Source of the DNA: Pseudogemmobacter hezensis
Lineage (GTDB): Bacteria > Pseudomonadota > Alphaproteobacteria > Rhodobacterales > Rhodobacteraceae
NCBI RefSeq assembly: GCF_013155295.1
Contig: NZ_JABJXT010000004.1
Span: 124,001 to 188,000 of the forward strand
DNA: 64,000 nt
Direction: 5' to 3'
Positions 42,114-62,357 of the stretch are shown here, in pieces. Under the pieces are notes generated by a model. It saw nothing but the letters and a program-made list of their open reading frames with translations. It made no database searches and was not told the DNA's origin. Each line of letters begins with the position of its first letter. The first letter of the stretch is position 1. A program made the translations under genes and the position numbers.

Positions 42114-42155
42114 CGGGGTCTCCGGCATGTGAAATGGGCGTTTAAAAGAGATATC

Positions 42156-42554
42156 TCAGGCGGGAATGACGGCGGTGGCCTCGATCTCGACTTTGGCGCG
42201 ATCCTCCATCAGGGCCACGACCTGCATCACGGCCATGGCCGGATAATGCCGCCCGATGATCTCTTTATAGACGCTGCCCAGCCGTTTCAGATCGGCGAGG
42301 TATTCCTCTTTGCTGGTGATGAACCAGGTCAGGCGCACCAGATGCTCTGGCTTTGCGCCCGCCTCGGCCAGCACCGCCACGATATTGCGCAGCGTTTGCG
42401 CGACCTGATCGACGAAATCATCGCTTTCGAACGCGCAATCGGCATTCCAGCCGATCAGCCCCCCGGTCACGACAAGACGCCCCTGGGCCGCCATGCCATT
42501 GGCATAGCCTTTGGCGGGTTTCCATCCGGGGGGGTGCAGGGTCTGAATGCTCAT
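42156..42554 (-). CDS. RidA/YjgF-family enamine/imine deaminase
   Basis: 132 residues. Members hydrolyse enamines or imines to the ketone plus ammonia; this one keeps GGLIGWNAD, RLTWFITSKEEY and a KVEIEATAV end where the family's substrate-binding Arg and Glu normally sit. Within an operon whose monooxygenase/reductase yields a ring with an enamine at C2, it could perform or speed the deamination. It overlaps the thioesterase gene by 4 bases. Confidence 0.82.
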   Translation of the reverse strand: MSIQTLHPPGWKPAKGYANGMAAQGRLVVTGGLIGWNADCAFESDDFVDQVAQTLRNIVAVLAEAGAKPEHLVRLTWFITSKEEYLADLKRLGSVYKEIIGRHYPAMAVMQVVALMEDRAKVEIEATAVIPA

Positions 42555-42958
42555 GTCGCCTCCTGAAATGCGATGAGTTTTGTGCGAACCGCCTGCGGCC
42601 AGGGCTGCGGGCGGCCATTTTCATTAACGAAAACCAGCGTCAGATCGCAGGTCAGGCGGTGAATGCCCGCGCCATGCGCCTCAATATGCAGGCTGGCCGA
42701 GCTGGAGCCCAACCGCACCAGCGAAAGCCGCCAGTCCAGCACCTCACCCAGCCGCGAGGGCGCGTGAAACACCGTCTGGATCTGCGCGGTCGGAACGCCG
42801 GTGCCCGCCGCCATCATCTCTTCATAGGGCCAGCCGGCAATCTCGCGGAAGAAATTTTCGACGACGGAATTGGTCATCTCGAAATAACGCGGGTAAAAAA
42901 CGATCCCGGCAGGGTCGCAATGATTGAACTCAATGCGGATCGGGCGGGTATAGGTCAT
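42551..42958 (-). CDS. 4-hydroxybenzoyl-CoA-type hotdog thioesterase
   Basis: 135 residues. The start [20 protein letters not shown] has the Asp of the 4-hydroxybenzoyl-CoA thioesterase family ([13 protein letters not shown]). It hydrolyses an acyl-CoA. In this operon it may clear dead-end CoA esters or free CoA from a pathway intermediate. It overlaps neighbours on both sides by 4 bases. Confidence 0.85.
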
Positions 42959-44091
42959 GACAAAAGGCTCCGGGCGATGACGACGCGCTGCACGTCGGAT
43001 GCGCCTTCGTAGATACGCAGCGCCCGGATGTCACGATAGAGCTCTTCGACCTTGCTGCCGACCCGCACGCCGTCACCGCCATGCAGCTGCACCGCGGCGT
43101 CAATCACCTGCTGGGCGGCCTCGGTCGCGTAAAGCTTGGCCATGGCGGCCTCACGGGTGATGCGGGCCGCGCCCTGGTCTTTGGTCCAGGCGGCGCGGTA
43201 AACCAGCAAAGCGGCGGCATCAATCTTCAGCGCCATATCGGCCAGATGCCCCTGCACCATCTGCAAGGACGCCAGCGGCGCCCCCTGGATCTGGCGCGCC
43301 TGCGTGCGCGCCAGCGCCTCATCCAGCGCACGCCGCGCCAGCCCAAGCGCCGCCGCCCCGACCGTCGGGCGAAACACATCCAGCACCGACATTGCCAGCT
43401 TGAACCCCTCACCCGGCTTGCCGATCAGGGCGCTCTCAGGCAGGAACACATCGTCCAGCCGCAACTGCGCCAGGGGATGCGGCGCGATCACCTCAATGCG
43501 CCCCGCAATCGTCAGGCCAGGCTTGTCGGCGGGCATCAGAAAGGCCGACAGCCCCTTCGCGCCCGCCGCCTCGCCCGTTCGGGCGAAAACCACGTAAACA
43601 TCGGCAATGCCGCCATTCGAGATATAGGTCTTCTCGCCCGAAAGCCGATATCCCCCCTCAACCCGCCGCGCCAGCGTCGCCGTATTGGCCACATCCGAAC
43701 CCGCCCCGGGCTCCGTCAGCGCAAAGCCCGAAATCGCCCCGCCCGTCCGGGTCCGCTCCAGCCATTCGCGCTGCGCAGGCGTGCCGAACAGCGAGACCGC
43801 CCCCATCCCCAGTCCCTGCATGGCAAAGGAAAAATCCGCCAAAGCATCATGCCGCGCCAGGGTCTCACGGATCAGACAAAGAGAGCGCACATCCAGCCGC
43901 TCCCCCTCGCCCGCGCCTGAGTGGCGTAAAAAACCCGCCGCGCCCAGATCCCGCACCAGCCCCCTGCAAGCCTGATCGACATCCCCGTGATCGACAGGCA
44001 GATGCGCCCGCGCCCATTCCTCCAGCGCAGCCGCCAGCTCATGGTGACGCGCCTCAAAAAAGGGCCAGTCCAGAAAACTGCGATCACTCAT
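42955..44091 (-). CDS. Acyl-CoA dehydrogenase
   Basis: 378 residues. FAD enzyme signatures are [19 protein letters not shown] and a late [29 protein letters not shown], with the helical N- and C-domains of the family. It probably introduces a double bond in a dearomatised cyclohexane-carboxyl-CoA or ring-opened acyl-CoA. ATG 44091 abuts the dispersed repeat at 44091-44141; the longer frame to 44151 would read through that repeat. Confidence 0.87.
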
Positions 44092-44163: not shown

Positions 44164-44987
<824 letters not shown>

Positions 44988-44991
<4 letters not shown>

Positions 44992-45419
44992 CGCTTCATC
45001 GCCTTCTTCAGAATTTCGGTCAGAGTATCGACATCCGCGTCATCCAGCCCCTCAAAGACCCGCGCCACCTCGGCCTCATGCCCCACGGCAAGGGTCTCGA
45101 ATTGCGCCAGCCCCTCGGGCGTCAGGCCGACATAGACAGTGCGCCGGTCGGTGTCTGAGGGCCGCCGCGCCACCAGACCGTCTTTTTCCAGCCGGTCAAC
45201 CACCGTCGTCGCATTGCCGTTTGAGACCAGCAGCAGGCGACTCAGCTCGCTCATGGTGCAGCCCTCACGGCGGCGGTAAAGCGCGGCCATCACGTCGAAA
45301 CGCGGCAGGGTGGTGTCATGGGTCAGGCGCAGAAATTCGCGCAGGTTCGATTCCGCGCTGCGCGTGACCGCCAGCATACGGATCCACAGTTTCAGCCTGC
45401 GCTTTGAACTTTCGCTCAC
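44988..45419 (-). CDS. MarR-family repressor inside the 2-aminobenzoyl-CoA operon
   Basis: 143 residues with a winged helix ([47 protein letters not shown], about 60-105). It starts at GTG overlapping the SDR stop. MarR proteins of aromatic-CoA pathways often respond to the CoA ester substrate, so it is the best candidate to bind the palindrome at 48534-48588 (inference). Confidence 0.83.
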
Positions 45420-46216
45420 ACCTCACCCCCTGCAATGGCCAATGCCTGACCATTGATGCCCTCGGATCCCGGCGCGCACAACCACAGTGCGGCCGCAGTT
45501 ACCTCATCCGGGCGGATCAGCCGCTTTTGCGGGTTGGTGGCGGCAAGCGTCTTGCGGGCGTCATCCGCGCTCATCCCGGTTTTTTCGACGATATTGGCAA
45601 CCGAGCGGTCGGTCATCTCGGTATCCAGAAACCCCGGGCAAAGCGCATTGACGGTGACGGGCTTCTTCGCCACCTCAAGCGCCAGGCTTTTCACCATGCC
45701 CACCACACCATGTTTCGCCGCAGTATAGGGCGCGACATAGGCATAGCCCTTCAGCCCGGCGGTCGAGGCCACGGCAATCAGCCGCCCCCAGCCGTCAAAC
45801 TGCGCCAAAGCCTGGCGGAAGGTCAGGAAAACCCCGGTCAGATTGACCGCCAGCATCGCGTTCCATTCCGCCAGCGAGGTTTTCGCCAAAGGGGCCGAAC
45901 TCGAGGCCCCGGCATTCGCCACCACGATATCGCAGCGCCCGGCCTCGGTGAAAAGGCGCTGCACATCCGCCTCATCCGTCACATCGGCCAGCAGCGCACG
46001 GGCGCCAATCGCTCCCGCCACCGCCTGCAAGGGGGCCTCGCGGCGACCGCAGATCACCACCTCGGCACCCCGGGCCGCAAAGCCATGGGCAAGGTCTGCC
46101 CCCACCCCGGTGCCACCGCCGGTGATCAGCACGCGTTTGCCGTTCAGATTGTCCTGCCGCAGATCGCTCTGTCTCGGGTCGCTCTGTCCCGGGTCGTTCT
46201 GTCTCGGGTCGCTCAT
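45416..46216 (-). CDS. Short-chain dehydrogenase/reductase
   Basis: 266 residues. NAD(P)-binding motif TGGGTGVG near residue 37, NAG motif (VVANAGAS), catalytic Ser and YxxxK (YTAAK). It likely oxidises or reduces a hydroxy/keto-cyclohexene or hydroxyacyl-CoA intermediate. The first 20 residues are a run of DPRQ-like units from a 15-bp tandem repeat, which is not part of the fold. It overlaps the monooxygenase gene and the MarR gene by 4 bases each. Confidence 0.87.
   Translation of the reverse strand: MSDPRQNDPGQSDPRQSDLRQDNLNGKRVLITGGGTGVGADLAHGFAARGAEVVICGRREAPLQAVAGAIGARALLADVTDEADVQRLFTEAGRCDIVVANAGASSSAPLAKTSLAEWNAMLAVNLTGVFLTFRQALAQFDGWGRLIAVASTAGLKGYAYVAPYTAAKHGVVGMVKSLALEVAKKPVTVNALCPGFLDTEMTDRSVANIVEKTGMSADDARKTLAATNPQKRLIRPDEVTAAALWLCAPGSEGINGQALAIAGGEV
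46154..46213. repeat. Four 15-bp tandem units at the 5' end of the SDR gene
   Basis: CTGTCTCGGGTCGCT (46199-46213 and 46169-46183), CTGTCCCGGGTCGTT (46184-46198) and a degenerate CTGCCGCAGATCGCT (46154-46168). They code for an SDPRQ-type repeat directly after the start Met. Confidence 0.9.
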
Positions 46217-48498
46217 GCGCGGATGGCCTCTTGCTGACGTTGATGCAGCCGGGTCAGTGTGACCTGACCGTGACGGTAGGGGGCGGGCCAGGTGGCTGCA
46301 GCCTCGCCCTGATCGATGGCGGCATGCAATGTCCAGTAGGGATCGGCCAGATGCATCCGCCCGATCATCACCAGATCGGCGCGGCCCGCCATCAGGATGC
46401 CATTGGCCTGATCCCAGTCGGTGATATTGCCGACCGTCATCGTGGCCAGCCCGGCCTCATTGCGGATGCGGTCGGAGAACGGCGTCTGGAACATGCGGCC
46501 ATAGATCGGGCGCTCGGCCGGGTCGGTCTGGCCAGAGGAAACGTCAATGATATCCGCCCCCGCCGCGCTGAACTGGCGGGCGATTTCCACCGCCTCCTCG
46601 GGCGTCACGCCACCCTCGATCCAGTCATTGGCCGAGATCCTGACCGACATCGGCTTATCCGCGGGCCAGACCGCCCGCATGGCGCGAAACACCTCCAAAG
46701 GATAGCGCATGCGGTTTTCAAGGCTGCCGCCGTATTCGTCGGTGCGCTGATTGGTGATCGGGCTGATGAAAGAGGCCAGCAGATAGCCATGTGCTGCGTG
46801 CATCTCAATCATATCGGCCCCGGCCCGCGCGGCCATTTCCGCACCGGCGACGAACTGGGCCCTGACCTCTGCCAGATCGGTGCGGTCCATCGCCCTGGGA
46901 ACCGCATTATCCGCCTTATAGGCAATCGCCGAGGCCGAGATGATCGGCCAGTTGCCCGATTTCAGCGGCGCATCAATGCCCCCATCCCAGGGCACACAGG
47001 TCGAGGCCTTGCGCCCGGCGTGGCCGATCTGGATGCAAAGCTTCGCATCGGTCTCCTGGTGAATGAAATCCGCCAGCCGCTTCCAGGCGGCCTCATGCTC
47101 GGGCGCGTAAAGGCCGGGGCAGCCGGGCGTGATGCGGCCAATCGCCGAGACGCAGGCCATTTCCGTGTAGATCAGCGCCGCACCGCCCTTGGCGCGCTCG
47201 GCATAATGGATCAGGTGCCAGTCGGTCGGGCAGCCATCCACGGCCTTATATTGCGCCATCGGCGACATCACGATGCGGTTCTTGAGGCGCATATCGCGCA
47301 GGGCGAAGGGCGCGAACATCGGGCGGCTGCCCGGCTTGCCACCCGCCTGTTCCTGGAACCAGTCTTCGGCGCTGGCCAGCCATTCCGGGTCGCGCAGGCG
47401 CAGGTTTTCATGGCTGATCCGCTGGCTGCGGGTCAAAAGCGAGTAGGCAAACTGGACGGGCGGCATATCGAGATACCGCTCGACCTGTTCGAACCATTCC
47501 AGGCTGTTGCGGGCCGCCGATTGCAGGCGCAAAACCTCGACCCGGCGCTCTTCCTGATAGCGGGCAAAGGCCGACTGCATATCAGGCTCGGAATGCAGAT
47601 ATTCCGCCAGCGCAATCGCGGAATCAAAGGCCAGCCGCGTGCCAGAGCCGATCGAGAAATGCCCGGTCGCCGCCGCATCGCCCATCAACACGACATTCTC
47701 ATGATACCAGCGCTCGCAGATCACCCGCGGGAATTGCGACCATACCGCCGAGCCGCGCAGATGCGCCGCGTTCGAGATCAGCTCATGCCCGCCGAGGTGA
47801 CGTTCAAAGATCTGGCGGCAGGTCTCGACGATTTCTTCCTTCGACATATCGACGAAGCCGAATTTCTCCCAGGTCTCGGGCAGGGTCTCAACGATGAAAG
47901 TCGCGGTATTGTCGTCGAACTGATAGACATGCGCCCAGACCCAGCCATGCTGGGTTTTCTCAAAGATGAAGGTGAAGGCATCGTCGAATTTCTGATGGGT
48001 GCCCAGCCAGATGAACTTGCATTTGCGCAGGTCGATATCGGGCTGGAATACGTCCTTATATTCGTTGCGCACCACGCTGTTGATACCGTCACAGCCGACA
48101 ACCAGATCGTAATCCCTGCGATACTCCTCAGCCGATTTGAAGATGGTCTCGAACTGCAGATTGACGCCCAGCTCGCGGGCGCGGTTTTGCAAAAGGATCA
48201 GCATCGCCTTGCGCCCGATCCCGGCGAAGCCATGCCCGCCAGAGACAGTGCGCACCCCGTCATGGACCACCGCAATATCATCCCAATAGGCGAAATCGGC
48301 GCGGATCGCCTCTGTGCTGACGGGATCGTTTTTCTGCATCCGCCCCAGGGCGTCGTCTGACAGCACCACCCCCCAGCCGAAGGTGTCATTGGCCTTGTTG
48401 CGTTCCAGCACAGTGATGTCATGCGCGGGGTCACGCAGCTTCATCGAAATCGCAAAATAAAGGCCCGCCGGACCTGCCCCGAGGCAAAGGATCTTCAT
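46213..48498 (-). CDS. 2-aminobenzoyl-CoA monooxygenase/reductase-type fused flavoprotein
   Basis: 761 residues in two flavin domains. Residues 1-380 are a class A FAD monooxygenase (GAGPAG at 7-12, VVGCDGINSVVR, an aromatic-hydroxylase-type GDAAATGHFSIGSG). Residues about 395-760 are an old-yellow-enzyme FMN reductase (LKNRIVMSPMAQYKAVDG, CIQIGHAGRKAS). This fusion is known for 2-aminobenzoyl-CoA monooxygenase/reductase and salicylyl-CoA 5-hydroxylase. With RidA and beta-oxidation genes behind it, the 2-aminobenzoyl-CoA function is likelier: hydroxylation at C5 then ring reduction. ATG 48498 is chosen for the FAD motif position. Confidence 0.87.
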   Translation of the reverse strand: MKILCLGAGPAGLYFAISMKLRDPAHDITVLERNKANDTFGWGVVLSDDALGRMQKNDPVSTEAIRADFAYWDDIAVVHDGVRTVSGGHGFAGIGRKAMLILLQNRARELGVNLQFETIFKSAEEYRRDYDLVVGCDGINSVVRNEYKDVFQPDIDLRKCKFIWLGTHQKFDDAFTFIFEKTQHGWVWAHVYQFDDNTATFIVETLPETWEKFGFVDMSKEEIVETCRQIFERHLGGHELISNAAHLRGSAVWSQFPRVICERWYHENVVLMGDAAATGHFSIGSGTRLAFDSAIALAEYLHSEPDMQSAFARYQEERRVEVLRLQSAARNSLEWFEQVERYLDMPPVQFAYSLLTRSQRISHENLRLRDPEWLASAEDWFQEQAGGKPGSRPMFAPFALRDMRLKNRIVMSPMAQYKAVDGCPTDWHLIHYAERAKGGAALIYTEMACVSAIGRITPGCPGLYAPEHEAAWKRLADFIHQETDAKLCIQIGHAGRKASTCVPWDGGIDAPLKSGNWPIISASAIAYKADNAVPRAMDRTDLAEVRAQFVAGAEMAARAGADMIEMHAAHGYLLASFISPITNQRTDEYGGSLENRMRYPLEVFRAMRAVWPADKPMSVRISANDWIEGGVTPEEAVEIARQFSAAGADIIDVSSGQTDPAERPIYGRMFQTPFSDRIRNEAGLATMTVGNITDWDQANGILMAGRADLVMIGRMHLADPYWTLHAAIDQGEAAATWPAPYRHGQVTLTRLHQRQQEAIRA

Positions 48499-48533
48499 CA
48501 CCGAAACTCCCTGATTTGGGATGATCCTTGCCG

Positions 48534-48588
48534 CTTCGCCGATAAATTTCAAGTTTAAAATTTTGTGACTTGAAATTTATCGACGAAG
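48534..48588. promoter_or_regulatory. Long palindromic operator between divergent catabolic operons
   Basis: The arm at 48534-48554 ends CGATAAATTTCAAGT and the arm at 48568-48588 starts ACTTGAAATTTATCG. They pair at 20 of 21 positions around a 13-base A/T-rich centre. It lies between the monooxygenase start (48498) and the hydratase start (48605). Each arm holds a TTGAAA that can serve as -35 box for one of the two directions, so a bound repressor could block both. It probably binds a MarR protein. Confidence 0.75.
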
Positions 48589-48604
48589 GCGCATTGTGCA
48601 GCCT

Positions 48605-49360
48605 ATGGAACATCTGATCGAGACTGATGAGGGCGGCTGGACCCGGCTGCTGATCAACCGCCCCGGCGCGAAAAATGCGCTGAACACTGCGCTGCTGGCC
48701 GACCTGGCGGCGGCGCTGACGCGGCTTTCGGGCGATGACAGCTGCCGCGCGGTGATGATCGCGGGCGCTGATGGCAATTTCGCCGCCGGGGCCGATATCG
48801 GCGAGATTGAGGGCAAAACCAGCACTGAGGCGGCGGCGGATCCGCGCAAAGCCCAATGGGCCAGCATCCGCGCCTTTCCAAAGCCGCTGGTCGCCGCGGT
48901 TGAGGGCTTTGCCCTGGGCGGCGGGTTAGAGCTGGCGCTGATGGCCGATCTGATGGTGGTGGGCGACAGCGCCCGGCTGGGGCTGGCGGAAACCAATCTG
49001 GGCATCATCCCCGGCGCGGGTGGCGGGCAGCGGCTGATCGCCCGCATCGGCCCGGCCAAAGCGGCGCGGATGGTGCTGACCGGGGAAATCATCGATGCCG
49101 ACACCGCCTTCGCCTGGGGGCTTGCCGCCTGTCGCGCCGGGGACGCGCTGGCCGAGGGGGCGGCGCTGACCGCGCGCCTCGCGCAGCGGGCGCCGCTGGC
49201 GCTGCAGGCGGCCAAAGCGGCGCTGATCCAGGGCGCCGAGGCCGCGCTTGCGCTGGATGCCGAGCGGGCCGCATTCGAGGCGCTGCTGGACAGCCAGGAC
49301 AAGGCCGAGGGCATCCGCGCCTTCCGCGAAAAGCGCAAACCCATCTGGCAGGGGAAATGA
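48605..49360 (+). CDS. Enoyl-CoA hydratase/isomerase family protein
   Basis: 251 residues, crotonase fold: oxyanion-hole segment GNFAAGADIGEIEG near residue 63 and GFALGGGLELALMADLMV near residue 104, with Glu in ETNLGIIPGAGGGQRL. A typical hydratase of aromatic-acid beta-oxidation (PaaF-like). ATG 48605; the upstream GTG at 48596 is less likely. It leads a two-gene plus-strand unit with the next gene and shares the palindromic control region with the minus-strand operon. Confidence 0.88.
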   Translation: MEHLIETDEGGWTRLLINRPGAKNALNTALLADLAAALTRLSGDDSCRAVMIAGADGNFAAGADIGEIEGKTSTEAAADPRKAQWASIRAFPKPLVAAVEGFALGGGLELALMADLMVVGDSARLGLAETNLGIIPGAGGGQRLIARIGPAKAARMVLTGEIIDADTAFAWGLAACRAGDALAEGAALTARLAQRAPLALQAAKAALIQGAEAALALDAERAAFEALLDSQDKAEGIRAFREKRKPIWQGK

Positions 49361-49361
49361 C

Positions 49362-50471
49362 ATGGCGACGGTGGCGGTGATTGGCCTTGGCACGATGGGC
49401 CTTGGCATTGCGCAGACCTATGCGGCAGCGGGGTTTGAGGTGCTGGCCACTGATGCCCATGCCCCCGTCCGCGACACGGCGGCCAGCCGCCTGGCCGCAG
49501 CGCTTGCCCCCCGTGTCGAGGCGGGCAAGATGACGCCCGCCGCCCGCGATGCGCTTTTGTCCAGGTTCCGCGTGGTAAACGGCCCCGAAGTGATGGGCGC
49601 GGCGGATCTGGCGATCGAGGCCGTTGTTGAACGGCTGGACGTAAAACAGCATATTTTCAATGCATTAGAGGATGTCATGCGCCCCGATGCGGTGCTGGCC
49701 AGCAATACATCCTCGCTTTCCGTGGCCAGGATGGCCCAGGGGCTGCGCCATCCCGAACGCCTGATCGGCCTGCATTTCTTCAACCCCGCCCCGGTGATGA
49801 AACTGGTCGAGCTGGTCGCGCATCCGGCCAGCGGACCCCAGGCCCTGCACCTCGCGCGGCAGCTGACCGAGGCGGCGGGCAAGACCGTCATCCAATGCCC
49901 CGACCGCCCCGGCTTTATCGTCAACCGCTGCGCCAGACCCTTTTACGGCGAGGCGCTCGCACTGTTGGAAGAGGGCCGCAGCCCCGGCGAGATCGACGCG
50001 GCGATGCAGGGCGCGGGCTACCGCCTTGGCCCATTCGCGCTGATTGACCTGGTGGGCGCAGACATCAATCTGGCCGCGACCGAAAGCCTTGCGGCGGCGA
50101 TGGGCGGCAGCCCGCGCTATCATGTGTTTGAGGCGCTGAAGGTCCAGGTCGCCAGCGGCAATCTGGGGCGCAAAACCGGGCGCGGGTTTCTGTTCCCCGA
50201 CAGCCCCGGCCCCCTGCCCGATGATGCCTCCAGCCTTGTTCTGCGCATCGAGGCCACGCTGATCAATGAGGCGCTCTGGCTGCTGTCCGAGGGGGGGATT
50301 GATGAAAGCGGTATTGATACCGCATTGAAACTGGGGCTGAATTTCCCGCGCGGGCCGTTTGAGATGCTGTCCCTTCACGGCGCAGACAGCGTGCGGGCCA
50401 CACTTGCACGGCTGGAAACCAGCGCCCCGCCACCGCTGAAAATCCGCTATTTGGCCGCGCCTGGCCTGTAG
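49362..50471 (+). CDS. 3-hydroxyacyl-CoA dehydrogenase
   Basis: 369 residues. NAD-binding motif GLGTMGLGIAQTYAAAG, SNTSSLSV, and the family box HPERLIGLHFFNPAPVMKLVELV with the catalytic His. Two C-terminal helical dimerisation domains follow. It oxidises a 3-hydroxyacyl-CoA in the lower pathway before thiolysis. One base separates it from the hydratase gene. A two-way terminator follows its stop. Confidence 0.9.
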   Translation: MATVAVIGLGTMGLGIAQTYAAAGFEVLATDAHAPVRDTAASRLAAALAPRVEAGKMTPAARDALLSRFRVVNGPEVMGAADLAIEAVVERLDVKQHIFNALEDVMRPDAVLASNTSSLSVARMAQGLRHPERLIGLHFFNPAPVMKLVELVAHPASGPQALHLARQLTEAAGKTVIQCPDRPGFIVNRCARPFYGEALALLEEGRSPGEIDAAMQGAGYRLGPFALIDLVGADINLAATESLAAAMGGSPRYHVFEALKVQVASGNLGRKTGRGFLFPDSPGPLPDDASSLVLRIEATLINEALWLLSEGGIDESGIDTALKLGLNFPRGPFEMLSLHGADSVRATLARLETSAPPPLKIRYLAAPGL

Positions 50472-50492
50472 GAAACCAGACGCCGCATAAGC

Positions 50493-50519
50493 AAAGGGCC
50501 GGGGATTTCCCGGCCCTTT
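50493..50519. terminator. Bidirectional terminator between convergent genes
   Basis: An 11-bp perfect stem, AAAGGGCCGGG (50493-50503) with CCCGGCCCTTT (50509-50519), loop of 5. T runs on both strands make it usable in both directions between the 3-hydroxyacyl-CoA dehydrogenase and iorB stops. Confidence 0.88.
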
Positions 50520-50525
50520 TGTCGC

Positions 50526-52067
50526 TCAGACAAAGCTGCGGATGGTCTGGATCGCACCGTCGAGATCCTTGCCTTCCTCATCCTTCAGCGCCGCCTCGCG
50601 CAGACGACGCGCCCAATCGGCGGCATCCTCGCGCCCGGCGACCAGATCAATCGCCGCGATCACCCGGTCAAACTTCGACAGGCCCCGCGCATGGGTGTCG
50701 GAATAGCCCTTGATGAGGCGGCGGCAGCGGATCAGCTCGACCGCGAGGGCGTAGTTGCGATCAACCTCAGCCAGGGCGCGGGTCAGCCAGGCCTCAAGAT
50801 GCGCCACCTCTTGTGCGTGGCGCAGCGTGCGGCGGCGCCAGAACTTCATGCCGCCCAGCAGGTAAAGCATGGCATAGCCGCGAAAGCTGTCGGTGCGGAT
50901 GCGCCGCCCATGGCCGAACCAACGGTTCAGTCGCGCCATGGATTTCGGATTGGCCTCGACCCGTGCCCCCCATTTGAGCGGCAGCATGCCGGCGATTTCC
51001 TCGGCGCGGGGGTGCATGAACTCGGTCAGCTGCATCAGATGCTGATCCTTTGCGCCCATCTCGCCGCGGATCCGGGCAAAGCGGTTGCCACGGGTTTTCA
51101 GATCGGCCACCCGGATCACATCGTCGTAACACATTGCATTTGCGATGTATTTCGCCGCCTGGACCGAGAGATCCCAGGGGGCGTGATCGCGGTCCAGCAC
51201 GGTTTGCAGCCGATCCAGATAGTCCGCCCCATAGGCGATGTCCTGAAAACTGACCACCTTGCGCAGCCCGTGTTCCCCCATTTCCGCCACCGGAGCGGGC
51301 ATCGCCTGCAGCCGCGCCACCAGCTTTTCCCAGGCCGCCATCAGCTTTGCCGGGCCGCGCACCATTGTATCTGCTACCGCAGGCGCGGGCTCGTTCTTGC
51401 CGATATCGCCGTTCAGCGCCGCATCATAGCCCGCGCCAAAGGCCCGGAGACTGGCCTCAATCCCCTTGCCGCCCGAGTGGCGGATCGCATCCTCAAAGGC
51501 CTGGCGCGGGAACGGCAGCGCCCCCGAGGCCGCCAGCGCCCCGAACAAAGTCGAGGAAATGATCGAGCCGTTTTTCACCGCCACCGCCTCATAATCGGCG
51601 GCCAGCAGGCGTTTCGCGGTCTGGATCGCGGCCTCGCGCACTGCCTCGGGGTCGGCGACGCCGTCGCCCGGCACCATCTTCTCGGAAACCGCCAGATTGC
51701 GATGGGTCGAGGCGATCAGCGTGGTGCGATCAGGCGTGACAAAGCCGCGAATGATGGCGCGACCGGCCTCCATCCATTCGGCGGCGATCATGACATCGAC
51801 GTCGCCCGCCGCCGGCATCAGCGAGAAAACCGGATCGCCGCCGTCTTTCGGGGCCATCTCGACATAGTAGATCGTGGCCCCGGTGCGCTGCGACACCCCC
51901 GCGACCGAGGTCGCCTGGGCCGCAAACCCCTGAGATCGCGCGACATCCTCGATCCAGCCGGTCAGCACGCCGCCACCCTGGCCGCCCACCGCATAGATCG
52001 CCACTTTGATGATGGATTTCAGCTTTTCATCGGGCTGACGGGGCGGGATCACTTCATGCAGGCTCAT
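50526..52067 (-). CDS. iorB: Indolepyruvate:ferredoxin oxidoreductase-type subunit, long form
   Basis: 513 residues. The first 210 are the gamma/beta catalytic domain of 2-oxoacid:acceptor oxidoreductases (VAIYAVGGQGGGVLTGWIED, GVSQRTGATIYYVEM). The remainder is an extra helical domain, as in the long IorB forms with a DUF6537-like C-terminus. With IorA it would oxidatively decarboxylate an aryl 2-oxoacid onto CoA and pass electrons to ferredoxin or another acceptor. The start overlaps the iorA stop by 4 bases. The substrate here is more likely isatinate than indolepyruvate (inference from neighbours). Confidence 0.82.
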   Translation of the reverse strand: MSLHEVIPPRQPDEKLKSIIKVAIYAVGGQGGGVLTGWIEDVARSQGFAAQATSVAGVSQRTGATIYYVEMAPKDGGDPVFSLMPAAGDVDVMIAAEWMEAGRAIIRGFVTPDRTTLIASTHRNLAVSEKMVPGDGVADPEAVREAAIQTAKRLLAADYEAVAVKNGSIISSTLFGALAASGALPFPRQAFEDAIRHSGGKGIEASLRAFGAGYDAALNGDIGKNEPAPAVADTMVRGPAKLMAAWEKLVARLQAMPAPVAEMGEHGLRKVVSFQDIAYGADYLDRLQTVLDRDHAPWDLSVQAAKYIANAMCYDDVIRVADLKTRGNRFARIRGEMGAKDQHLMQLTEFMHPRAEEIAGMLPLKWGARVEANPKSMARLNRWFGHGRRIRTDSFRGYAMLYLLGGMKFWRRRTLRHAQEVAHLEAWLTRALAEVDRNYALAVELIRCRRLIKGYSDTHARGLSKFDRVIAAIDLVAGREDAADWARRLREAALKDEEGKDLDGAIQTIRSFV

Positions 52068-54205
52068 ACCGGGAACTCCAGCGTACGGGCGGCGCGGCGG
52101 CGGGCAAGCCAGCCGATCAGGCGGGTTCGCAACCCGGCGCGCCATTTCTCAAACCCGGTCGGGTTATGGACCACGTCAGCGCGGTAGAAGCTGGGGCACA
52201 GCACCGCCGCATCAGCCACCTCGCCGCAATTGCCGCAGCCAACGCAGGTCTGGTCGATCCGCGCCACCGGGTCATCGCGCAAGGGATCGCCCGTGTGTTT
52301 CAGCCCCAAAGAGGGGCAGCCCGACAGCCGCATGCAGGCGTGATCGCCGGTGCAGACCGCCTCATCAACGCCAAAGCGAGGCGCCTCAACCCGGCGGCCC
52401 TCTTTGATCGCTTTGGCCTTCAGCGGCCGCTCGCGGCGCTGCTTGTTCAGCATACATTCCGACGAGGCGACGATGACTTTCGGGCCTTTTTCGTCGGTGG
52501 TCAGCGCCTCGGTGATGGTCGCTTTCAGCTTTGGCACATCATAGGTGTGGTCGATCTGGCGCACCCATTTCACGCCGATTCCCTTTACCGCCTGCGAGAT
52601 CGGGTTGTTCGTCGCCTTGGTGTCGTTTTTCGCCCGCGACGACATCACATCCTGGCCGCCCGTCGCCGCCGAGTAATAATTGTCGACCACGACCACCAGG
52701 CTGTCAGACTTGTTGAACACCATATTGCCGATCGAGGTGTTCAGCCCGTTGTGCCAGAAGCCGCCATCACCGATGATCGAGATAGGCCGCCTCTCGCCAC
52801 CGCCGTCAAAGGCCGCGTTGGCCGCTGGCCCAAGGCCATAGCCCATCGTCGCCCCGCCCACATAAAAGGGCGGCATAGAGCCGAACAGATGGCAGCCGAT
52901 ATCGGCGGTGATCTGATGCTTGCCGCGTTCCTGCTGCACCATTTTCAGCGCGGCAAAGATGGGGCGCTCGGGGCAGCCGGTGCAAAATCCTGGCGGCCGC
53001 ATCGGCACCACTTTGGTCAGATCCGGCAACTGCGGCTTGTCCTCATTCGGTGCGCGGACGGTGGCGGGCAGCATATCGGGCGCGGCGATTTTCAAAAACG
53101 CCGTCAGACTGTCCAGCATCACCTGGCCGGTATATTCGCCCCCCATCGGCAGGATGCCCTTGCCGTGCAGTTTGACCGTCGACCCGGCGCGGTAGAGATA
53201 GGTGGAAAGCTGCTGCTCCATAAATTCGGGGTGGCCCTCTTCGACCATCAGGAGGTTTTCCTTGCCCTCGCAGAATTCCAGAAACTCTGATGAAACAAGT
53301 GGATAGGCCACATTCAGGCAATAGATCGGCAGGTCTGTATTGCCGTAAAGATCGGCCAGCCCCATGCGCTGCAGCGCCCGGATCACGCCGTTGTACATGC
53401 CGCCCTGAACCACCAGCCCGGCCTTGCCGCCCTTCGGGCCGAAGAATTCATTCAGCTTATGCTCGATGATGAATTTCTCGGCGGCGGGCCAGCGATTGTT
53501 GATCTTGTCCTGTTCATGCAGATAGGTGAAGGGCGGCAGCACCACGCGGGTAACATCGGCCTGCGGGTTCTTCAGCGCGTCTTTGACGGTCAGCGGCGGG
53601 CGCCTGTTGTCGCGGCACTCAAAGGTGCCGGTGACATGGCAAGAGCGGATCCGCACGATCATCATCACGGGCGTATTCGTCGCCTCGGACATATCAAACC
53701 CGTAATGCACGGCGTCAACCATCGCCTGCAGATTGGGGCGCGGGTCCAGCAGCCACATCTGCGATTTCATCGCAAAAGCGTGGCTGCGTTCCTGCATGAT
53801 CGAGGAGCCCTCGCCATAATCCTCGCCGACGATGATCAGCGCGCCGCCATTGACGCCGGAATCGGTCAGGTTCGCCAGCGCGTCAGATGCCACATTGACG
53901 CCCACCGGCCCCTTGAAGGTCACCGCCCCCCGGATCGGATAATGGATCGAGGCCGCCAGCATCGCTGCCGCCCCTGCCTCATTCGCGTTGGCCTCAAAGC
54001 GGACGCCAAGCTCTGCCATCAGCTCTTCGGCATCGGCCAGCACATCCATCATATGCGAGATGGGTGCGCCCTGATAGCCGCCGACATAGCCGACCCCGCT
54101 TTCCAGCAGCGCCTTGGTCAGGGCAAGGATTCCCTCGCCGGTAAATGTCTCGCCCGCGCCTTTGCGCAGGTGCTCAACCTCGGCCTTGAAGCTGCGCTCT
54201 GCCAT
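52064..54205 (-). CDS. iorA: Indolepyruvate:ferredoxin oxidoreductase-type thiamine-diphosphate subunit
   Basis: 713 residues. Order: pyrimidine-binding domain (GVGYVGGYQGAPISHMMDVLAD), a domain ending EEGHPEFMEQQ, the thiamine-diphosphate site (IIGDGGFWHNGLNTSIGNMV and VVVDNYYSAATGGQ), then a ferredoxin-like end with CMRLSGCPS and CVGCGNCGEVADAAVLCPS for [4Fe-4S] clusters. It is the catalytic subunit that adds the 2-oxoacid to thiamine. Three bases separate it from the MarR gene. Being an iron-sulfur enzyme in an O2-using pathway is notable. Confidence 0.87.
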   Translation of the reverse strand: MAERSFKAEVEHLRKGAGETFTGEGILALTKALLESGVGYVGGYQGAPISHMMDVLADAEELMAELGVRFEANANEAGAAAMLAASIHYPIRGAVTFKGPVGVNVASDALANLTDSGVNGGALIIVGEDYGEGSSIMQERSHAFAMKSQMWLLDPRPNLQAMVDAVHYGFDMSEATNTPVMMIVRIRSCHVTGTFECRDNRRPPLTVKDALKNPQADVTRVVLPPFTYLHEQDKINNRWPAAEKFIIEHKLNEFFGPKGGKAGLVVQGGMYNGVIRALQRMGLADLYGNTDLPIYCLNVAYPLVSSEFLEFCEGKENLLMVEEGHPEFMEQQLSTYLYRAGSTVKLHGKGILPMGGEYTGQVMLDSLTAFLKIAAPDMLPATVRAPNEDKPQLPDLTKVVPMRPPGFCTGCPERPIFAALKMVQQERGKHQITADIGCHLFGSMPPFYVGGATMGYGLGPAANAAFDGGGERRPISIIGDGGFWHNGLNTSIGNMVFNKSDSLVVVVDNYYSAATGGQDVMSSRAKNDTKATNNPISQAVKGIGVKWVRQIDHTYDVPKLKATITEALTTDEKGPKVIVASSECMLNKQRRERPLKAKAIKEGRRVEAPRFGVDEAVCTGDHACMRLSGCPSLGLKHTGDPLRDDPVARIDQTCVGCGNCGEVADAAVLCPSFYRADVVHNPTGFEKWRAGLRTRLIGWLARRRAARTLEFPV

Positions 54206-54208
54206 GGT

Positions 54209-54682
54209 TCAAACCTCTTGCTTGCATATATTGGCTAGCATTTTCTGAAGGGTGCCGACGAAAGCATGCCGCTCTTCGTCGGAAATGCCGCGAAACATCC
54301 GCTCGGTGGCCAGCGCCATATGCGGCCAGATCCTCTCGAATGCGGCGCGGCCCTGATCGGTGGAAAAGACGCGGGTGGCGCGGCTGTCATTGGCGTCAGT
54401 CTCACGCCGGACCAGCCCCTCGGCCTGCAGCTGATCCAGCGCCCGGGACAGGGTTGATTGTTCGGTCACCGCCAGCTCTGCCAGCTCGCGGATCAGGGGG
54501 CCATCCATCACGGAAAGCACCCCAAGCGCCCGCATCTTGGCGGTGGTCAGGCCCATATCGGCCATCTCACCGCGCAGGATGCCGTTATACTGGCTCATCA
54601 GGCGGTTCATCAGATAGGGCGGAAAGGCGGAAAGACCGATCTGCCCCAGCCGCTGCGCCGGGCTGGGGGTCTCGCTGCTCAT
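54209..54682 (-). CDS. MarR-family regulator of the isatin/2-oxoacid operon
   Basis: 157 residues, winged helix at about residues 60-105 (LAELAVTEQSTLSRALDQLQAEGLVRRETDANDSRATRVF). It is embedded between the flavoenzyme and iorA genes with 4-base overlap and 3-base gap, so probably autoregulates the operon, binding in the 57037-57206 region. The ligand is likely a pathway intermediate. Confidence 0.82.
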   Translation of the reverse strand: MSSETPSPAQRLGQIGLSAFPPYLMNRLMSQYNGILRGEMADMGLTTAKMRALGVLSVMDGPLIRELAELAVTEQSTLSRALDQLQAEGLVRRETDANDSRATRVFSTDQGRAAFERIWPHMALATERMFRGISDEERHAFVGTLQKMLANICKQEV

Positions 54683-56238
54683 GCGCCCAGCCTTTTCGCC
54701 GCATTATAGCCCGAGCCGCCGCCAAGCCCCGGCCCCGGATGGGTTGAGGCGCCGATATGGATCAGCCCGCGCACCGGGCCGGTGCCATTCGTCGAATTGT
54801 AGAAGGGCCGCCAGATGAAGAACTGATCGACCGCGCAGGAACCGCCATAGGGATCGCCGCCGACCAGGTTGACGTTCATCGCCTCCAGGTCTTTGGGGCT
54901 ATAGGCGCGGCGTGCCAGAACCATCTTGTCGAAATCTTTGATATGGCTGGAAAGAATGGCCTGCAGGCGGTCGGCGAAGGCCTCTTTCGCGGCGTCCCAG
55001 TCGCGGGCCTCGATCTCGCCTGCGGCATCGCCTTTGATCACTGTGGGCACGTCGGGGATCTGCATCCAGATCACCGATTTGCCCTGAGGGCAGCGGGTTG
55101 GATCAAGACGCGAGGGCTGGCCCACGCAGATCGTCGGTGTGACCGGCAGCATGCCGCGCTCGGCCTCGTTTGACGATTTTGAGACCGCATCGACGCTGTC
55201 CGCCAGATGGATCAGCGCCACCTGTTCCAGCCCCGGCGTTTTCCATTCCGGCACTCCGTCCAGCGCGAAATGCAGCTGGAAATCGCCACGCCCATGGCGG
55301 AAGCGCTTCAGCGCGGCCTTTTCCTCGGGCAGGCTCACATCTTTCAAAAGCCGGTTGTAAAGCTGCCCCGGCGCGACCGAGGCCAGCACCGATTTCGAGG
55401 CGATATGTTCACCGCCCTTCAGCCGCACGCCCGTCACGCGGCCATTTTCCACCGTGATTTCATCGACATCGGCGCTGCAGCGCACCTGGCCGCCATTGGC
55501 CTCTATCAGCGAGACGAAGGCCTTCGCCGCCTGCCCCGCACCGCCTTTTGAGATCGGCGCGCCTGCGCCTTCAAGCGCGAAGGCGATCACCCGGCCCATC
55601 GCGCCGGAATAGGCATTCTCGACCGTCAGCCCGCAATGCAGCGCCCAGGGGGCGAAAAGCGTGCGGGCTTCTTCGGATTTGAACGTGGTCTCAACCCAGC
55701 CGCGCATCGGATCCAGCTGCTGGCCCATCCAGCCCGCAATCCCGCGCAGGCCCCGCTTGCGGGTCTCTTTCAACAGGGTTTTCAGCGTGGCCCAGGACCA
55801 GAGCGGCTGGCCCAGGATCGCAAACATGAAAGGCGCATCCGCCGCCAGACGATCCACCTCGGCCGCGAAAGCATCCCCATCGCCGGGGGCCGCGGCATTC
55901 AGCGCCGCGACGTTTTCCGCCCGGTTGGTTGACAGCACCAGCGAGCGGCCATCCTTGCGCAAAACAGCGGTCGGATGCGGGGTGTTGCAATATTCAAAGC
56001 CATGTTTGGCGAGGTGCGGCCCAAGCGCCGCCCCCGCCGCACTGGTCATAAACAGAACGAAAGTGGTCGCCATTGGGTCATGGACAAAGCCGGGATGCAG
56101 CTCATTGGTGCGCAGACAGCCGCCTGCCACCTCTTCGCGCTCCAGCACCAGAACCTTGCGGCCCTTCAGCGCCAGCAGACTGGCCGCAACCAGCCCGTTA
56201 ATCCCGGATCCAATGATAATATGGTCAACAGCGGCCAT
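54679..56238 (-). CDS. PYROXD2/phytoene-desaturase-like FAD oxidoreductase
   Basis: 519 residues. N-terminal FAD motif GSGINGLVAASLLALKGRKVLVLE; the C-terminal FAD-contact region ends with HIGASTHPGPGLGGGSGYNAAKRL. Such proteins catalyse flavin-linked dehydrogenation of unsaturated or N-containing rings; the reaction here is unknown. It is a paralogue of the gene across the divergent promoter (57207-58772) and lies right after the isatin-hydrolase-like gene. ATG 56238; a GTG at 56244 is in frame. Confidence 0.8.
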   Translation of the reverse strand: MAAVDHIIIGSGINGLVAASLLALKGRKVLVLEREEVAGGCLRTNELHPGFVHDPMATTFVLFMTSAAGAALGPHLAKHGFEYCNTPHPTAVLRKDGRSLVLSTNRAENVAALNAAAPGDGDAFAAEVDRLAADAPFMFAILGQPLWSWATLKTLLKETRKRGLRGIAGWMGQQLDPMRGWVETTFKSEEARTLFAPWALHCGLTVENAYSGAMGRVIAFALEGAGAPISKGGAGQAAKAFVSLIEANGGQVRCSADVDEITVENGRVTGVRLKGGEHIASKSVLASVAPGQLYNRLLKDVSLPEEKAALKRFRHGRGDFQLHFALDGVPEWKTPGLEQVALIHLADSVDAVSKSSNEAERGMLPVTPTICVGQPSRLDPTRCPQGKSVIWMQIPDVPTVIKGDAAGEIEARDWDAAKEAFADRLQAILSSHIKDFDKMVLARRAYSPKDLEAMNVNLVGGDPYGGSCAVDQFFIWRPFYNSTNGTGPVRGLIHIGASTHPGPGLGGGSGYNAAKRLGA

Positions 56239-56244
56239 TTTCAC

Positions 56245-57036
56245 TCAACTTTCTGCAACAAGCGCCAGCGCACGCATCGGCGAGCCGGTGCCATTTTTGA
56301 TTTTCAAAGGCGCGGCAATCAGCACCGCGCCTTTGGGCGGCAATTTATCCAGGTTCACCAGCGAGGCGAGACCAAAGCGGTTGTTGGCATGCAAGAGGTT
56401 ATGCGCCGGGAAAGGTGGGCTCATACCGCCTGCGCAGCCCGCGTCAGTGCCGATGCACTGGCTGCCCCAGCCAACGATGCCCTTGTCGACCAGGAACTGG
56501 ATCGCCTCGGCGGTCGGGCCGGGGGTATGGGGGCCGGTCTCATTGGCGTTCAGGAACTGCGCCTCATCATGGTTAAAGCGATCCCAGTCAGAGCGCAGCA
56601 CCACCCATTCGCCAGCCTGAATCGCGCCATGTTTGGCCTCCCATGCCTCGATATGCGCGACGGTCAGCAGGAAATCCGGGTCAGCGGCGCATTCGGCGCT
56701 GAAATCCAGCACATTCACCGGGGCAATCAGACGCTGAACATCGATGGTGTCGGTATAGCCTTCGGGGTTTTCGCGCCCGGTGATCCAGTGATGGGGCACG
56801 TCGAAATGGGTGCCCGAATGCTCGCCCAGCTCCAGCCAGTTCCAGGCCCAGAAGGGGCCATTCTCGTCATATTCGCAGATCTTATGGATTTTGATCGGCG
56901 GCGTGTCTTTCGCCAGTTCCGGCGGCAGTTTCAAAAGCGGCGTTTCCGGCCCCAGCGTCGCGGTCAGGTCAACCACCCTGATCCCGCCCGAGGCCAGCAA
57001 TCCGGCAAGCTGCATCAGCGCATTGGCTGCGGTCAT
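56245..57036 (-). CDS. Isatin hydrolase-like cyclase-family metalloenzyme
   Basis: 263 residues. The metal-binding family motif is EHSGTHFDVPHHW near residue 75 (HxGTHxDxPxH). The following stretch (TDTIDVQ, IEAWEAKHG, WVVLRSDW, GPHTPGP) and the end (PPKGAVLIAAPLKIKNGTGSP) match my memory of the Labrenzia isatin hydrolase much better than kynurenine formamidase KynB, which is about 50 residues shorter. It would open isatin to isatinate with a Mn or Zn ion. ATG 57036 has GGGAG upstream. It is first gene of the operon; five genes follow with near-zero spacing. Confidence 0.78.
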   Translation of the reverse strand: MTAANALMQLAGLLASGGIRVVDLTATLGPETPLLKLPPELAKDTPPIKIHKICEYDENGPFWAWNWLELGEHSGTHFDVPHHWITGRENPEGYTDTIDVQRLIAPVNVLDFSAECAADPDFLLTVAHIEAWEAKHGAIQAGEWVVLRSDWDRFNHDEAQFLNANETGPHTPGPTAEAIQFLVDKGIVGWGSQCIGTDAGCAGGMSPPFPAHNLLHANNRFGLASLVNLDKLPPKGAVLIAAPLKIKNGTGSPMRALALVAES

Positions 57037-57206: not shown

Positions 57207-58772
57207 ATGTCAGACAGCTATGACGTGGTTCTGATCGGGGCCGGCCACAATACCCTGGCCTGCGCCCTGCACCTCGCGGCAAAGGGCTGGAAAACCGGCC
57301 TTTTTGAGGCCGCCCCAACCCCCGGCGGCGCGGTGAAAACCGGGGAGTATACCCTGCCCGGCTTTCGCCATGACTGGGCGGCGATGAACCTGAACCTCTT
57401 CGCCGGATCAGCGTTTTATAAGGACTATTCGGCAGAACTGGCGCAGCATGGCTGCGCCTTTACGCCTGTCAGTAAGCCCTTTGCCTCGGCCTTTCCCGAT
57501 GGCTCCTGGCTGGGGGTTACCACCGACCGCGCGGAAACCCTGGCCCGCATCCGCGCCGAGGATCCCGCCGATGCCGAGACCTGGTCGCGCCTGAATGACA
57601 GTTTTCCGCAAACTGCCGAAGCGATAGGCGGTCTGCTTTCGATCCCGATGAAATTTAATGCGATTGCATGTTTCATGTTTAAAATGCTGCGCCGCAACAA
57701 AATCGGCGGCAGCCTGGATATCGCGCAGTTCATGGCCCAGACGCCGCGCCGCTTTCTGACGCGCAGCTTCCGCTCAGAGAAGATGCAGGCGCTTTTGGGG
57801 GCCTGGGGGCTGCATCTGGATTACGCGCCCGATGTCGCGGGCGGCGGCATTTTCCCCTATCTTGAGGGAATGGTTGCACAAAACCTGGGGATGACGCTGG
57901 GCCAGGGCGGCGCAGACACCATCATCCGGGCCATGGTCAAAGCGATTGAGGCACGCGGCGGGCGCGTCGAATGCAATGCCAGTGTCGCCAAAATCCTGCA
58001 TGAAAACGGCAAGGCCAGCGGGATCGAGCTGGCAGATGGTCGCCGCATTGCAGCGAAAAAAGCGGTGATTGCCGGTGTTGCGCCCCAGGCCCTGCTGCGG
58101 ATGACCGGGCCGACAGAGTCGCGCTTTGACCAGGCGATGCGCGATTACGCCTATGCGCCGGGCACGATGATGATCCACCTGGCGATGGACAGCCTGCCCG
58201 ACTGGGCGGCGGGCGCGGCGCTGCAGGAATTCGCCTATATCCATCTTGCCCCCAGCCTGGACCAGCAGGCGCGGGTCTATCAGCAGGCCCAGGCCGGCCT
58301 GTTGCCGGATGAGCCGATCCTTGTCGTGGGTCAGCCGACAACCGTTGACCCCTCGCGGGCGCCTCAGGGCAAGCATGTCCTTTGGGTGCAGGTGCGTATG
58401 GTGCCGGGCCAGATCAAAGGCGATGCGGCGGGCCAGATCACGGCGAAAACCTGGGATGAGGCCACCGCGCCGATGGCCGAGCGGGCGCTGGATATTCTTG
58501 AGCGCTATGCTCCCGGCACGCGGGCAAAGATCCTGGAGAAACACGTCGTCTCACCCCTGGATCTTGAGGCTGAGAACCCCAATCTGGTCGGCGGTGATCA
58601 GGTTTGCGGCAGCCATCACATCTCGCAAAACTTTATGTTCCGCCCGGCGCGGGGCCATTCTGACGGCTCGACCGCGCTGAAAAACCTGCATCTGACCGGG
58701 GCGGCCGTCTGGCCGGGCGCGGGCACAGGCGCGGGGCCAGGCTATCTCCTGGCAAGGAGGCTGGCAAAATAA
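57207..58772 (+). CDS. PYROXD2/phytoene-desaturase-like FAD oxidoreductase, paralogue
   Basis: 521 residues. FAD motif GAGHNTLACALHLAAKGW near residue 10 and the C-terminal segment AAVWPGAGTGAGPGYLLARRL. It is similar along its length to the flavoenzyme at 54679-56238, and both keep a NLVGGD segment before the C-terminus. The two may act in sequence or form a heteromer. It leads the plus-strand operon that continues with an ABC importer, so the substrate is probably the imported compound or an early product. Its exact reaction is unknown. Confidence 0.8.
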   Translation: MSDSYDVVLIGAGHNTLACALHLAAKGWKTGLFEAAPTPGGAVKTGEYTLPGFRHDWAAMNLNLFAGSAFYKDYSAELAQHGCAFTPVSKPFASAFPDGSWLGVTTDRAETLARIRAEDPADAETWSRLNDSFPQTAEAIGGLLSIPMKFNAIACFMFKMLRRNKIGGSLDIAQFMAQTPRRFLTRSFRSEKMQALLGAWGLHLDYAPDVAGGGIFPYLEGMVAQNLGMTLGQGGADTIIRAMVKAIEARGGRVECNASVAKILHENGKASGIELADGRRIAAKKAVIAGVAPQALLRMTGPTESRFDQAMRDYAYAPGTMMIHLAMDSLPDWAAGAALQEFAYIHLAPSLDQQARVYQQAQAGLLPDEPILVVGQPTTVDPSRAPQGKHVLWVQVRMVPGQIKGDAAGQITAKTWDEATAPMAERALDILERYAPGTRAKILEKHVVSPLDLEAENPNLVGGDQVCGSHHISQNFMFRPARGHSDGSTALKNLHLTGAAVWPGAGTGAGPGYLLARRLAK

Positions 58773-60395: not shown

Positions 60396-60406
60396 GAGTG
60401 ACCGAC

Positions 60407-60461: not shown

Positions 60462-60486
60462 GGGCCAGGGGACTGGCGCTTTCTGG

Positions 60487-62347: not shown

Positions 62348-62357
62348 GGGGGCTGCG

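Follow-up and report, generated by a model that had tools for sequence, protein, structure and literature searches.

How do bacteria that open isatin consume the isatinate that results? This step is a gap in bacterial auxin and indole breakdown, and it would be closed if an enzyme of the IorAB kind made 2-aminobenzoyl-coenzyme A (CoA). The question is raised by a 64,000-nucleotide stretch of the Pseudogemmobacter hezensis genome (contig NZ_JABJXT010000004.1, positions 124,001 to 188,000; the window). Isatin arises when indole and auxin are broken down, and predicted genes for its opening, for conversion to a CoA ester and for degradation of that ester lie side by side here in one bacterium. 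On balance it is probable that isatinate is oxidised directly to 2-aminobenzoyl-CoA at this locus. In the proposed route, an isatin hydrolase would open isatin to isatinate (2-aminophenylglyoxylate). IorA-IorB, a thiamine diphosphate (ThDP) and iron-sulfur 2-oxoacid oxidoreductase, would then convert isatinate and CoA to 2-aminobenzoyl-CoA, CO2 and two electrons. The 2-aminobenzoyl-CoA monooxygenase/reductase (ABM) would hydroxylate and reduce this ester, and the neighbouring CoA enzymes would degrade the product. Free anthranilate and the CoA ligase would be bypassed on the isatin branch, a distant ligase serving anthranilate from kynurenine. Each catalytic step, the CoA product and the electron acceptor are predictions from observed gene content, arrangement, motifs and conservation. 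If correct, one ATP-using activation step would be saved on the isatin branch, the two-gene enzyme IadAB/IorAB would gain a job in auxin breakdown, and many genes labelled indolepyruvate oxidoreductase would be misnamed.

Isatin hydrolase and its operon

All genes were confirmed at the coordinates below by gene calls and profile matches. Operon 1 has five genes on the minus strand (57036-50526), with spacing from 4-base overlaps to 6-base gaps, and lies close to operon 2, the ABM operon (48501-40908, minus strand). The original prediction, that an isatin-hydrolase-like gene shares an operon with IorA and IorB subunits beside an ABM operon, is borne out by these coordinates and profiles. The genes of operon 1 are:

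56245..57036, minus strand: isatin hydrolase B-like protein, first gene of operon 1 (cyclase family, PF04199)
54679..56238, minus strand: FAD1, CrtI/amine-oxidase-like flavoprotein (PF01593; CrtI-type models below NCBIfam cut-offs)
54209..54682, minus strand: MarR-type regulator of operon 1 (PF12802)
52064..54205, minus strand: IorA, ThDP subunit, proposed alpha subunit of an isatinate:acceptor oxidoreductase (TIGR03336, 281.7 bits, cut-off 650.9)
50526..52067, minus strand: IorB, POR domain plus DUF6537, proposed beta subunit (NF006179, 666.9 bits, cut-off 348; PF01558, PF20169)

The hydrolase is identical in 184 of 261 residues (70%) to isatin hydrolase B of Labrenzia aggregata (LaIHB, PDB 4j0n and 4m8d). 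These structures were matched by phmmer at 8e-128, and kynurenine formamidases only near 7e-4. The hallmarks of isatin hydrolases are a metal motif HxG[T/A]HxDxPxH, a W-x-W pocket motif and a GLAS or GLQC signature (PMC6117287). The window protein has all three, as in the Labrenzia enzyme (HSGTHFDVPHH, WAW and GLAS), and is likely to be active on isatin. The same locus type, with IorAB, is found in Labrenzia sp. DG1229 (L174; L and G labels are our handles for loci and genomes).

Pairing of the hydrolase with IorAB

Hydrolase loci were compared using the best 80 of 585 candidates, so that distant hydrolases are under-sampled. Whole-genome searches covered 49 genomes drawn from these loci, and a class sample held 289 alphaproteobacterial genomes, P. 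hezensis included. IorA was present in 73 and IorB in 69 of the 80 fetched stretches. Of the seven loci lacking IorA, two (L139 and L146) run into a contig end, and in the other five (L152, L162, L169, L170 and L173) the gene is absent from the stretch. A MarR gene stands between the hydrolase and IorA in most loci. Minimal loci consist of hydrolase-MarR-IorA-IorB alone, and FAD1, a second flavoprotein (FAD2) and an importer are missing from a good part of the loci.

In the class sample the hydrolase occurred in 11 genomes and IorA in 47, all 11 falling within the 47 (hypergeometric 7e-10, kinship ignored). The two genes are adjacent in five of the 11 (G000, G131, G255, G001, G170), 8.5 kb apart in G283 and at separate places in five. 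IorA was also found on 40 of 57 plasmid records carrying the hydrolase, within 5 kb in 32 and in one more across the circular start, with distances computed from the best place per record only; on four Novosphingobium records 10-16 bases separate the two matches. The neighbourhood of hydrolase and IorAB is far beyond chance. On a tree of 60 IorA sequences 3 changes were enough to explain the hydrolase label, where shuffled labels averaged 17.6; the label is partly clustered by design since most rows were fetched via the hydrolase. In Caballeronia, IorA, IorB, a thioesterase and ABM lie on one strand with the hydrolase 5 kb on; this homologue keeps GLQC, and no ligase is annotated in the stretch. 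The Tsukamurella homologue keeps the metal motif and has no GLAS/GLQC signature.

The IorA-IorB enzyme

IorB is the only POR match in the genome. It exceeds the cut-off of the broader NF006179 family (666.9 against 348 bits) and falls short of the indolepyruvate beta equivalog TIGR03334 (41.9 against 205.8 bits), just as IorA falls short of the alpha equivalog TIGR03336 (281.7 against 650.9 bits). The window enzyme shares its domain order, ThDP motif and cysteine-rich end with indolepyruvate ferredoxin oxidoreductase, but differs in these scores and in its context of isatin hydrolase and ABM. The GDG motif of IorA and seven cysteines at its C-terminal end (618-670) were invariant in all 13 aligned relatives, which matches the expectation for an electron-transferring ThDP enzyme. 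No homologue of IorA or IorB was found by phmmer among solved structures, and a profile built from 13 IorA sequences gave three weak acetolactate synthase matches.

Enzymes of the IorAB superfamily are known for acyl-CoA products. The chemistry proposed here, from an aryl 2-oxoacid and CoA to an aroyl-CoA, is that of phenylglyoxylate:acceptor oxidoreductase; that enzyme has more subunits, whereas the window enzyme has two genes, one with a DUF6537 fusion. From its gene context it is highly probable that isatinate is the substrate of IorAB. Given that substrate, family chemistry and gene context make 2-aminobenzoyl-CoA the likely product.

ABM and the downstream genes

ABM is a FAD monooxygenase fused to a reductase of the old yellow enzyme type and exceeds the NF006101 cut-off (1251 against 1078 bits). 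The name of this model is salicylyl-CoA 5-hydroxylase/oxidoreductase, and the window protein is predicted to be the 2-aminobenzoyl-CoA enzyme. The genes of operon 2 run in the order ABM, short-chain dehydrogenase/reductase (SDR), MarR, enoyl-CoA hydratase, acyl-CoA dehydrogenase, thioesterase, RidA, thiolase, and between the two operons lies a plus-strand hydratase/3-hydroxyacyl-CoA dehydrogenase pair (48596-50471):

49362..50471, plus strand: 3-hydroxyacyl-CoA dehydrogenase (PF02737, PF00725)
48596..49360, plus strand: enoyl-CoA hydratase (PF00378; best NCBIfam match PaaF, below cut-off)
46213..48501, minus strand: ABM, two-domain 2-aminobenzoyl-CoA monooxygenase/reductase (predicted; NF006101, 1251 bits, cut-off 1078; FAD_binding_3 and Oxidored_FMN)
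45416..46216, minus strand: SDR dehydrogenase, recurring across ABM operons
44988..45377, minus strand: MarR-type regulator of the ABM operon (profile match)
44164..44991, minus strand: enoyl-CoA hydratase family protein (NF006107, 484 bits, cut-off 330)
42955..44091, minus strand: acyl-CoA dehydrogenase family (below equivalog cut-offs)
42551..42958, minus strand: YbgC/FadM-type thioesterase (below cut-off)
42156..42554, minus strand: RidA family (below cut-off)
40908..42128, minus strand: 3-oxoadipyl-CoA thiolase (NF006551 and TIGR02430 over cut-off)

Full-length ABM was present in 49 of 49 hydrolase-IorAB genomes, 45 over the cut-off and four at 1001-1054 bits. In the class sample it exceeded the cut-off in 50 of 289 genomes and was full-length in 10 of the 11 with the hydrolase, G156 giving a partial match only. 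ABM or part of its operon lay within 24 of the 80 loci. The presence of ABM in all hydrolase-IorAB genomes searched ties isatinate to the 2-aminobenzoyl-CoA pathway, by either entry. The three modules of the original prediction co-occur in related genomes.

The combination of a CoA ligase with ABM is one of four fates of anthranilate (PMC6221969). The window shares ABM and its operon with this pathway, but its ligase lies 87 kb off rather than in the operon, and the proposed entry is a 2-oxoacid, not anthranilate.

Comparison with iad auxin loci

The iad loci of Variovorax and Bradyrhizobium (PMC9613470, PMC12633357) have, like the window, an isatin hydrolase-like protein (IadI), IorA/IorB homologues (IadA/IadB) and MarR regulators, and a route via isatin and isatinic acid. 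In contrast, no IadDE oxygenase was found in the P. hezensis genome, and the published iad end product is free anthranilate. The iadA gene is the first of the Variovorax iad operon, and iorB/iadB and iotA/iadA are described as exclusive markers of iad-like operons as against iac operons (PMC9613470). This exclusivity places IorAB with the isatin route and not with the catechol route.

Several genomes carry both sets of genes. The hydrolase-IorAB pair occurs in L164 with iad genes for plain indoleacetate. A minus-strand run in G283 reads IorA, IorB, IadC, IadD, IadE, IadF, IadG, SDR fusion, hydrolase, SDR, with Iad labels given by homology to the L164 proteins. In G170 a single stretch unites the hydrolase, IorA, IorB and ABM operon genes with genes like IadF, IadG, IadD and IadE, and Paracoccus saliphilus has an iad-type operon beside a TRAP transporter, MarR, hydrolase, MarR, IorA and IorB.

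The iadC-K2 region is sufficient for anthranilate formation in Variovorax, and C8H7NO3, the formula of isatinate, and C7H7NO accumulate strongly only in strains overexpressing it (PMC12633357). From gene names and order, iadAB appears to lie outside iadC-K2. In the excerpt of this 2025 preprint (PMC12633357), roles are given to genes within iadC-K2 and none to iadAB; the excerpts of PMC9613470 likewise assign IadAB none. We count the build-up of an isatinate-formula compound with a region seemingly without iadAB in favour of the proposed route.

The source of isatin in P. hezensis is another matter. No adjacent Rieske subunits of the IadD/IadE type were found, the sole Ring_hydroxyl_A (PF00848) gene in the genome being closest to the glycine betaine monooxygenase GbcA (495.6 bits, cut-off 670), and no StyA-like indole monooxygenase was found in this genome. 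StyA-like matches occurred in 14 of 55 genomes searched. A StyA-like indole/styrene monooxygenase gene lies near the module in L196 (6958-9494), L127, L155, L017, L096, L098, L101, L103, L119 and L120, which suggests indole as the source of isatin there. A 2018 review had asked if isatin is really an intermediate, and by which genes anthranilate is processed further (PMC6221969).

A literature search with few subscription journals, made on excerpts, found no published proposal of a conversion of isatinate to 2-aminobenzoyl-CoA. The link between modules called unusual by the original prediction has a conserved hydrolase-IorAB/ABM context but is not wholly new, since iorAB was already known in iad loci (PMC9613470); the module is best described as a new combination of known enzyme kinds.

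The CoA ligase and other evidence against a direct route

The original prediction stated that no aromatic CoA ligase gene is present in the cluster. An AMP-binding profile search indeed found no benzoate-type CoA ligase in the window, where the only match (34763-36982) is closest to acyl-ACP--phospholipid O-acyltransferases and below their cut-offs. As a feature of the system this absence is not supported, and the following findings weigh against a direct route. Nine AMP-binding places were found in the genome, six of which were classified, the remaining three being part of open frames 1345 and 1570 residues long. A benzoate-CoA-ligase-family gene lies on the same contig about 87 kb from ABM (C34:81386-82951; TIGR02262, 360 bits, cut-off 375), so the genome is not free of aromatic CoA ligase genes. 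The product is 85-87% identical to the ligase of the nearest relative, Paracoccus sp. IB05 (90-95% identity across operon 1, 93% for ABM). There the gene belongs to the ABM operon, between RidA and thiolase, beside hydrolase-IorAB, which indicates that the window operon lost its ligase locally. The ligase is also kept with a linked ABM operon in five further genomes, adjoins ABM in Tsukamurella and shares a cluster with ABM in Alloyangia. With a homologue in all 49 relatives as well (46 at 74-89% identity), absence of the ligase cannot prove a direct route. In the draft genome G170 neither a ligase homologue (at 1e-60) nor a kynureninase was found; the genome is 92% complete in 320 contigs, so this absence is only suggestive. 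The IadF-like AMP-binding enzyme of G170 could, moreover, do double duty. Some IorA homologues have no hydrolase close by; several of these are accompanied by a TRAP transporter, and three belong to the hydrolase-linked clade. The words upstream of the hydrolase differ from the repeat upstream of ABM (both described below), so there is no sign of joint regulation. Finally, free anthranilate is made from Variovorax iadC-K2, and accumulation there may be an overexpression effect only (PMC12633357).

Displacement of the ligase was itself considered as proof of a direct route and rejected; early counts were clean and were undone by wider data. Many ABM operons have a benzoate-CoA-ligase-family gene after the acyl-CoA dehydrogenase, and in 35 of 49 genomes no more than 10 kb separate the ligase from ABM. 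This holds for 6 of the 14 ABM operons that are linked to hydrolase-IorAB and for 29 of the 35 that are not (Fisher 0.012, kinship ignored). The eight linked losses include four named Mesorhizobium and involve draft contigs, and the G323 ligase is at a contig end. G134 and G024 were dropped as support, IorAB being near ABM there but with no hydrolase and with kynureninase between. The G255 ligase was found by tblastn, the gene caller having missed it even after retraining for lower-GC loci. Kynureninase is present in 47 of 49 genomes and lies within 2 kb of the ligase in 14, four of these with ABM on another contig; this proximity gives the ligase another likely job.

Alternative explanations

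The reading that competes most directly keeps isatinate as substrate but has IorAB, or a later thioesterase, end at free anthranilate, which a CoA ligase would then activate. The ubiquity of the ligase among the relatives and its frequent proximity to ABM favour it, as do the thioesterase gene of the ABM operon and the one that follows IorB in Caballeronia. Reports of anthranilate as the end product of Variovorax and Bradyrhizobium (PMC9613470) also speak for it. Against it stand the acyl-CoA products of the superfamily, the missing ligase homologue in G170 and the likely kynureninase-associated job of the ligase. Taking both sides together we regard this alternative as unlikely, though deserving some weight. 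For the direct route as originally proposed, the conserved pairing, the constancy of ABM, the iad-exclusive iorAB and G170 support isatinate as substrate and ABM as sink; the CoA product is suggested by family chemistry and gene context.

It is distinctly unlikely that IorAB is instead an indolepyruvate (or phenylpyruvate) oxidoreductase supplying indoleacetyl-CoA to the start of an indole pathway, so that hydrolase and IorAB share a pathway without catalysing consecutive steps. Annotation by family name suggests this, and G024 has a 55% identical IorAB with genes for kynureninase, tryptophan dioxygenase and a class V aminotransferase in its vicinity but no hydrolase. However, both subunits score below the indolepyruvate equivalogs, no indoleacetate-to-isatin genes interrupt the minimal hydrolase-MarR-IorAB loci, and iorAB marks iad and not iac auxin loci (PMC9613470). 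The chance is slimmer still that hydrolase and IorAB work on an isatin-like compound, be it a substituted isatin or another aryl 2-oxolactam, taken up by the adjacent importer and prepared by FAD1 and FAD2. The lack of a recognised isatin source in the genome and the joint travelling of these genes would fit, but in L164 and Paracoccus saliphilus the pair is accompanied by iad genes, whose substrate is plain indoleacetate.

In an extension of the direct route, CoA-acylating oxidation of isatinate would be the dedicated function of IorAB throughout this clade, IadAB included. The breakdown of indole and auxin across Alpha- and Betaproteobacteria (perhaps also Actinomycetota) would in that case lead from the 2-oxoacid directly to 2-aminobenzoyl-CoA, and the free anthranilate of iad strains would stem from overflow or hydrolysis. 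A second ThDP enzyme, near hydrolase homologues in Agrobacterium, Deinococcus and Rhodococcus, would have been recruited independently as an isatinate decarboxylase that depends on the ligase. We give this joint reading an even chance.

A second ThDP enzyme beside hydrolase homologues

Deinococcus psychrotolerans has the gene order ABM-SDR-MarR-hydratase-acyl-CoA dehydrogenase-ligase-hydrolase homologue-ThDP enzyme-RidA. The hydrolase homologue and ThDP gene are also adjacent in Deinococcus sp. KNUC1210 and Rhodococcus erythropolis R138, and 4.3 kb separate the hydrolase from this different ThDP enzyme in Agrobacterium pusense, where no IorA match was found on the plasmid bearing that hydrolase. 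The ThDP enzymes of the Deinococcus, Rhodococcus and Agrobacterium loci are 54-87% identical to the D. psychrotolerans one and are candidate isatinate decarboxylases. Two of the proteins were scanned and gave many family matches, none over cut-off among the 25 listed for each. ThDP decarboxylase/oxidase-type genes were seen at L178:9765-11405, L186:9744-11390, L187:6130-7773 and L177:3062-4708.

Two unrelated ThDP enzymes following one hydrolase would, if these are isatin hydrolases, be a lead to isatinate as their common substrate. The homologues of the two Deinococcus and the Rhodococcus keep the metal motif without GLAS/GLQC, Rhodococcus also lacking W-x-W, and among ThDP-associated hydrolases the full signature is found only in Agrobacterium (GLQC). 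Thus the Deinococcus, Rhodococcus and Tsukamurella homologues may not be isatin hydrolases, which weakens the ThDP argument.

Other features

The remaining features beside operon 1 are:

57207..58772, plus strand: FAD2, another CrtI-like flavoprotein, transcribed divergently from operon 1 (profile matches)
58878..63230, plus strand: peptide/nickel-type ATP-binding cassette importer, with binding protein, two permeases and ATPase (profile matches)

In L018, L020, L024, L033, L037, L038, L040 and L053 the IorAB homologues are accompanied by a TRAP transporter but have no isatin hydrolase in the neighbourhood; they perhaps act on other aryl 2-oxoacids. A longer IorA-like gene on a Variovorax plasmid (L199:8001-10349), matching in two pieces, is near IS1071 and an acyl-homoserine-lactone synthase gene, with no IorB annotated beside it. 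In the stretch C34:78262-82951 (equal to L012:6262-10951) the displaced ligase lies near an OsmC protein, a zinc-type alcohol dehydrogenase and an AraC regulator weakly like AndR (108 bits, cut-off 350).

Between the divergent ABM and hydratase genes (48502-48595) a long near-perfect inverted repeat with arms around GATAAATTTCAAG was recognised by eye and is likely to be an operator. Upstream of the hydrolase (57037-57206) words such as TATTTGCA (32 of 77) and TGTCTAGC (30 of 77) recur in related loci. FAD1 was found in 58 and the importer binding protein in 54 of the 80 loci at 45% identity or higher. Many minimal loci do without FAD1; across loci it travels with FAD2 and the importer. In Tsukamurella two NAD(P)/FAD-dependent oxidoreductases stand beside IorAB, one of them 38% like FAD1.

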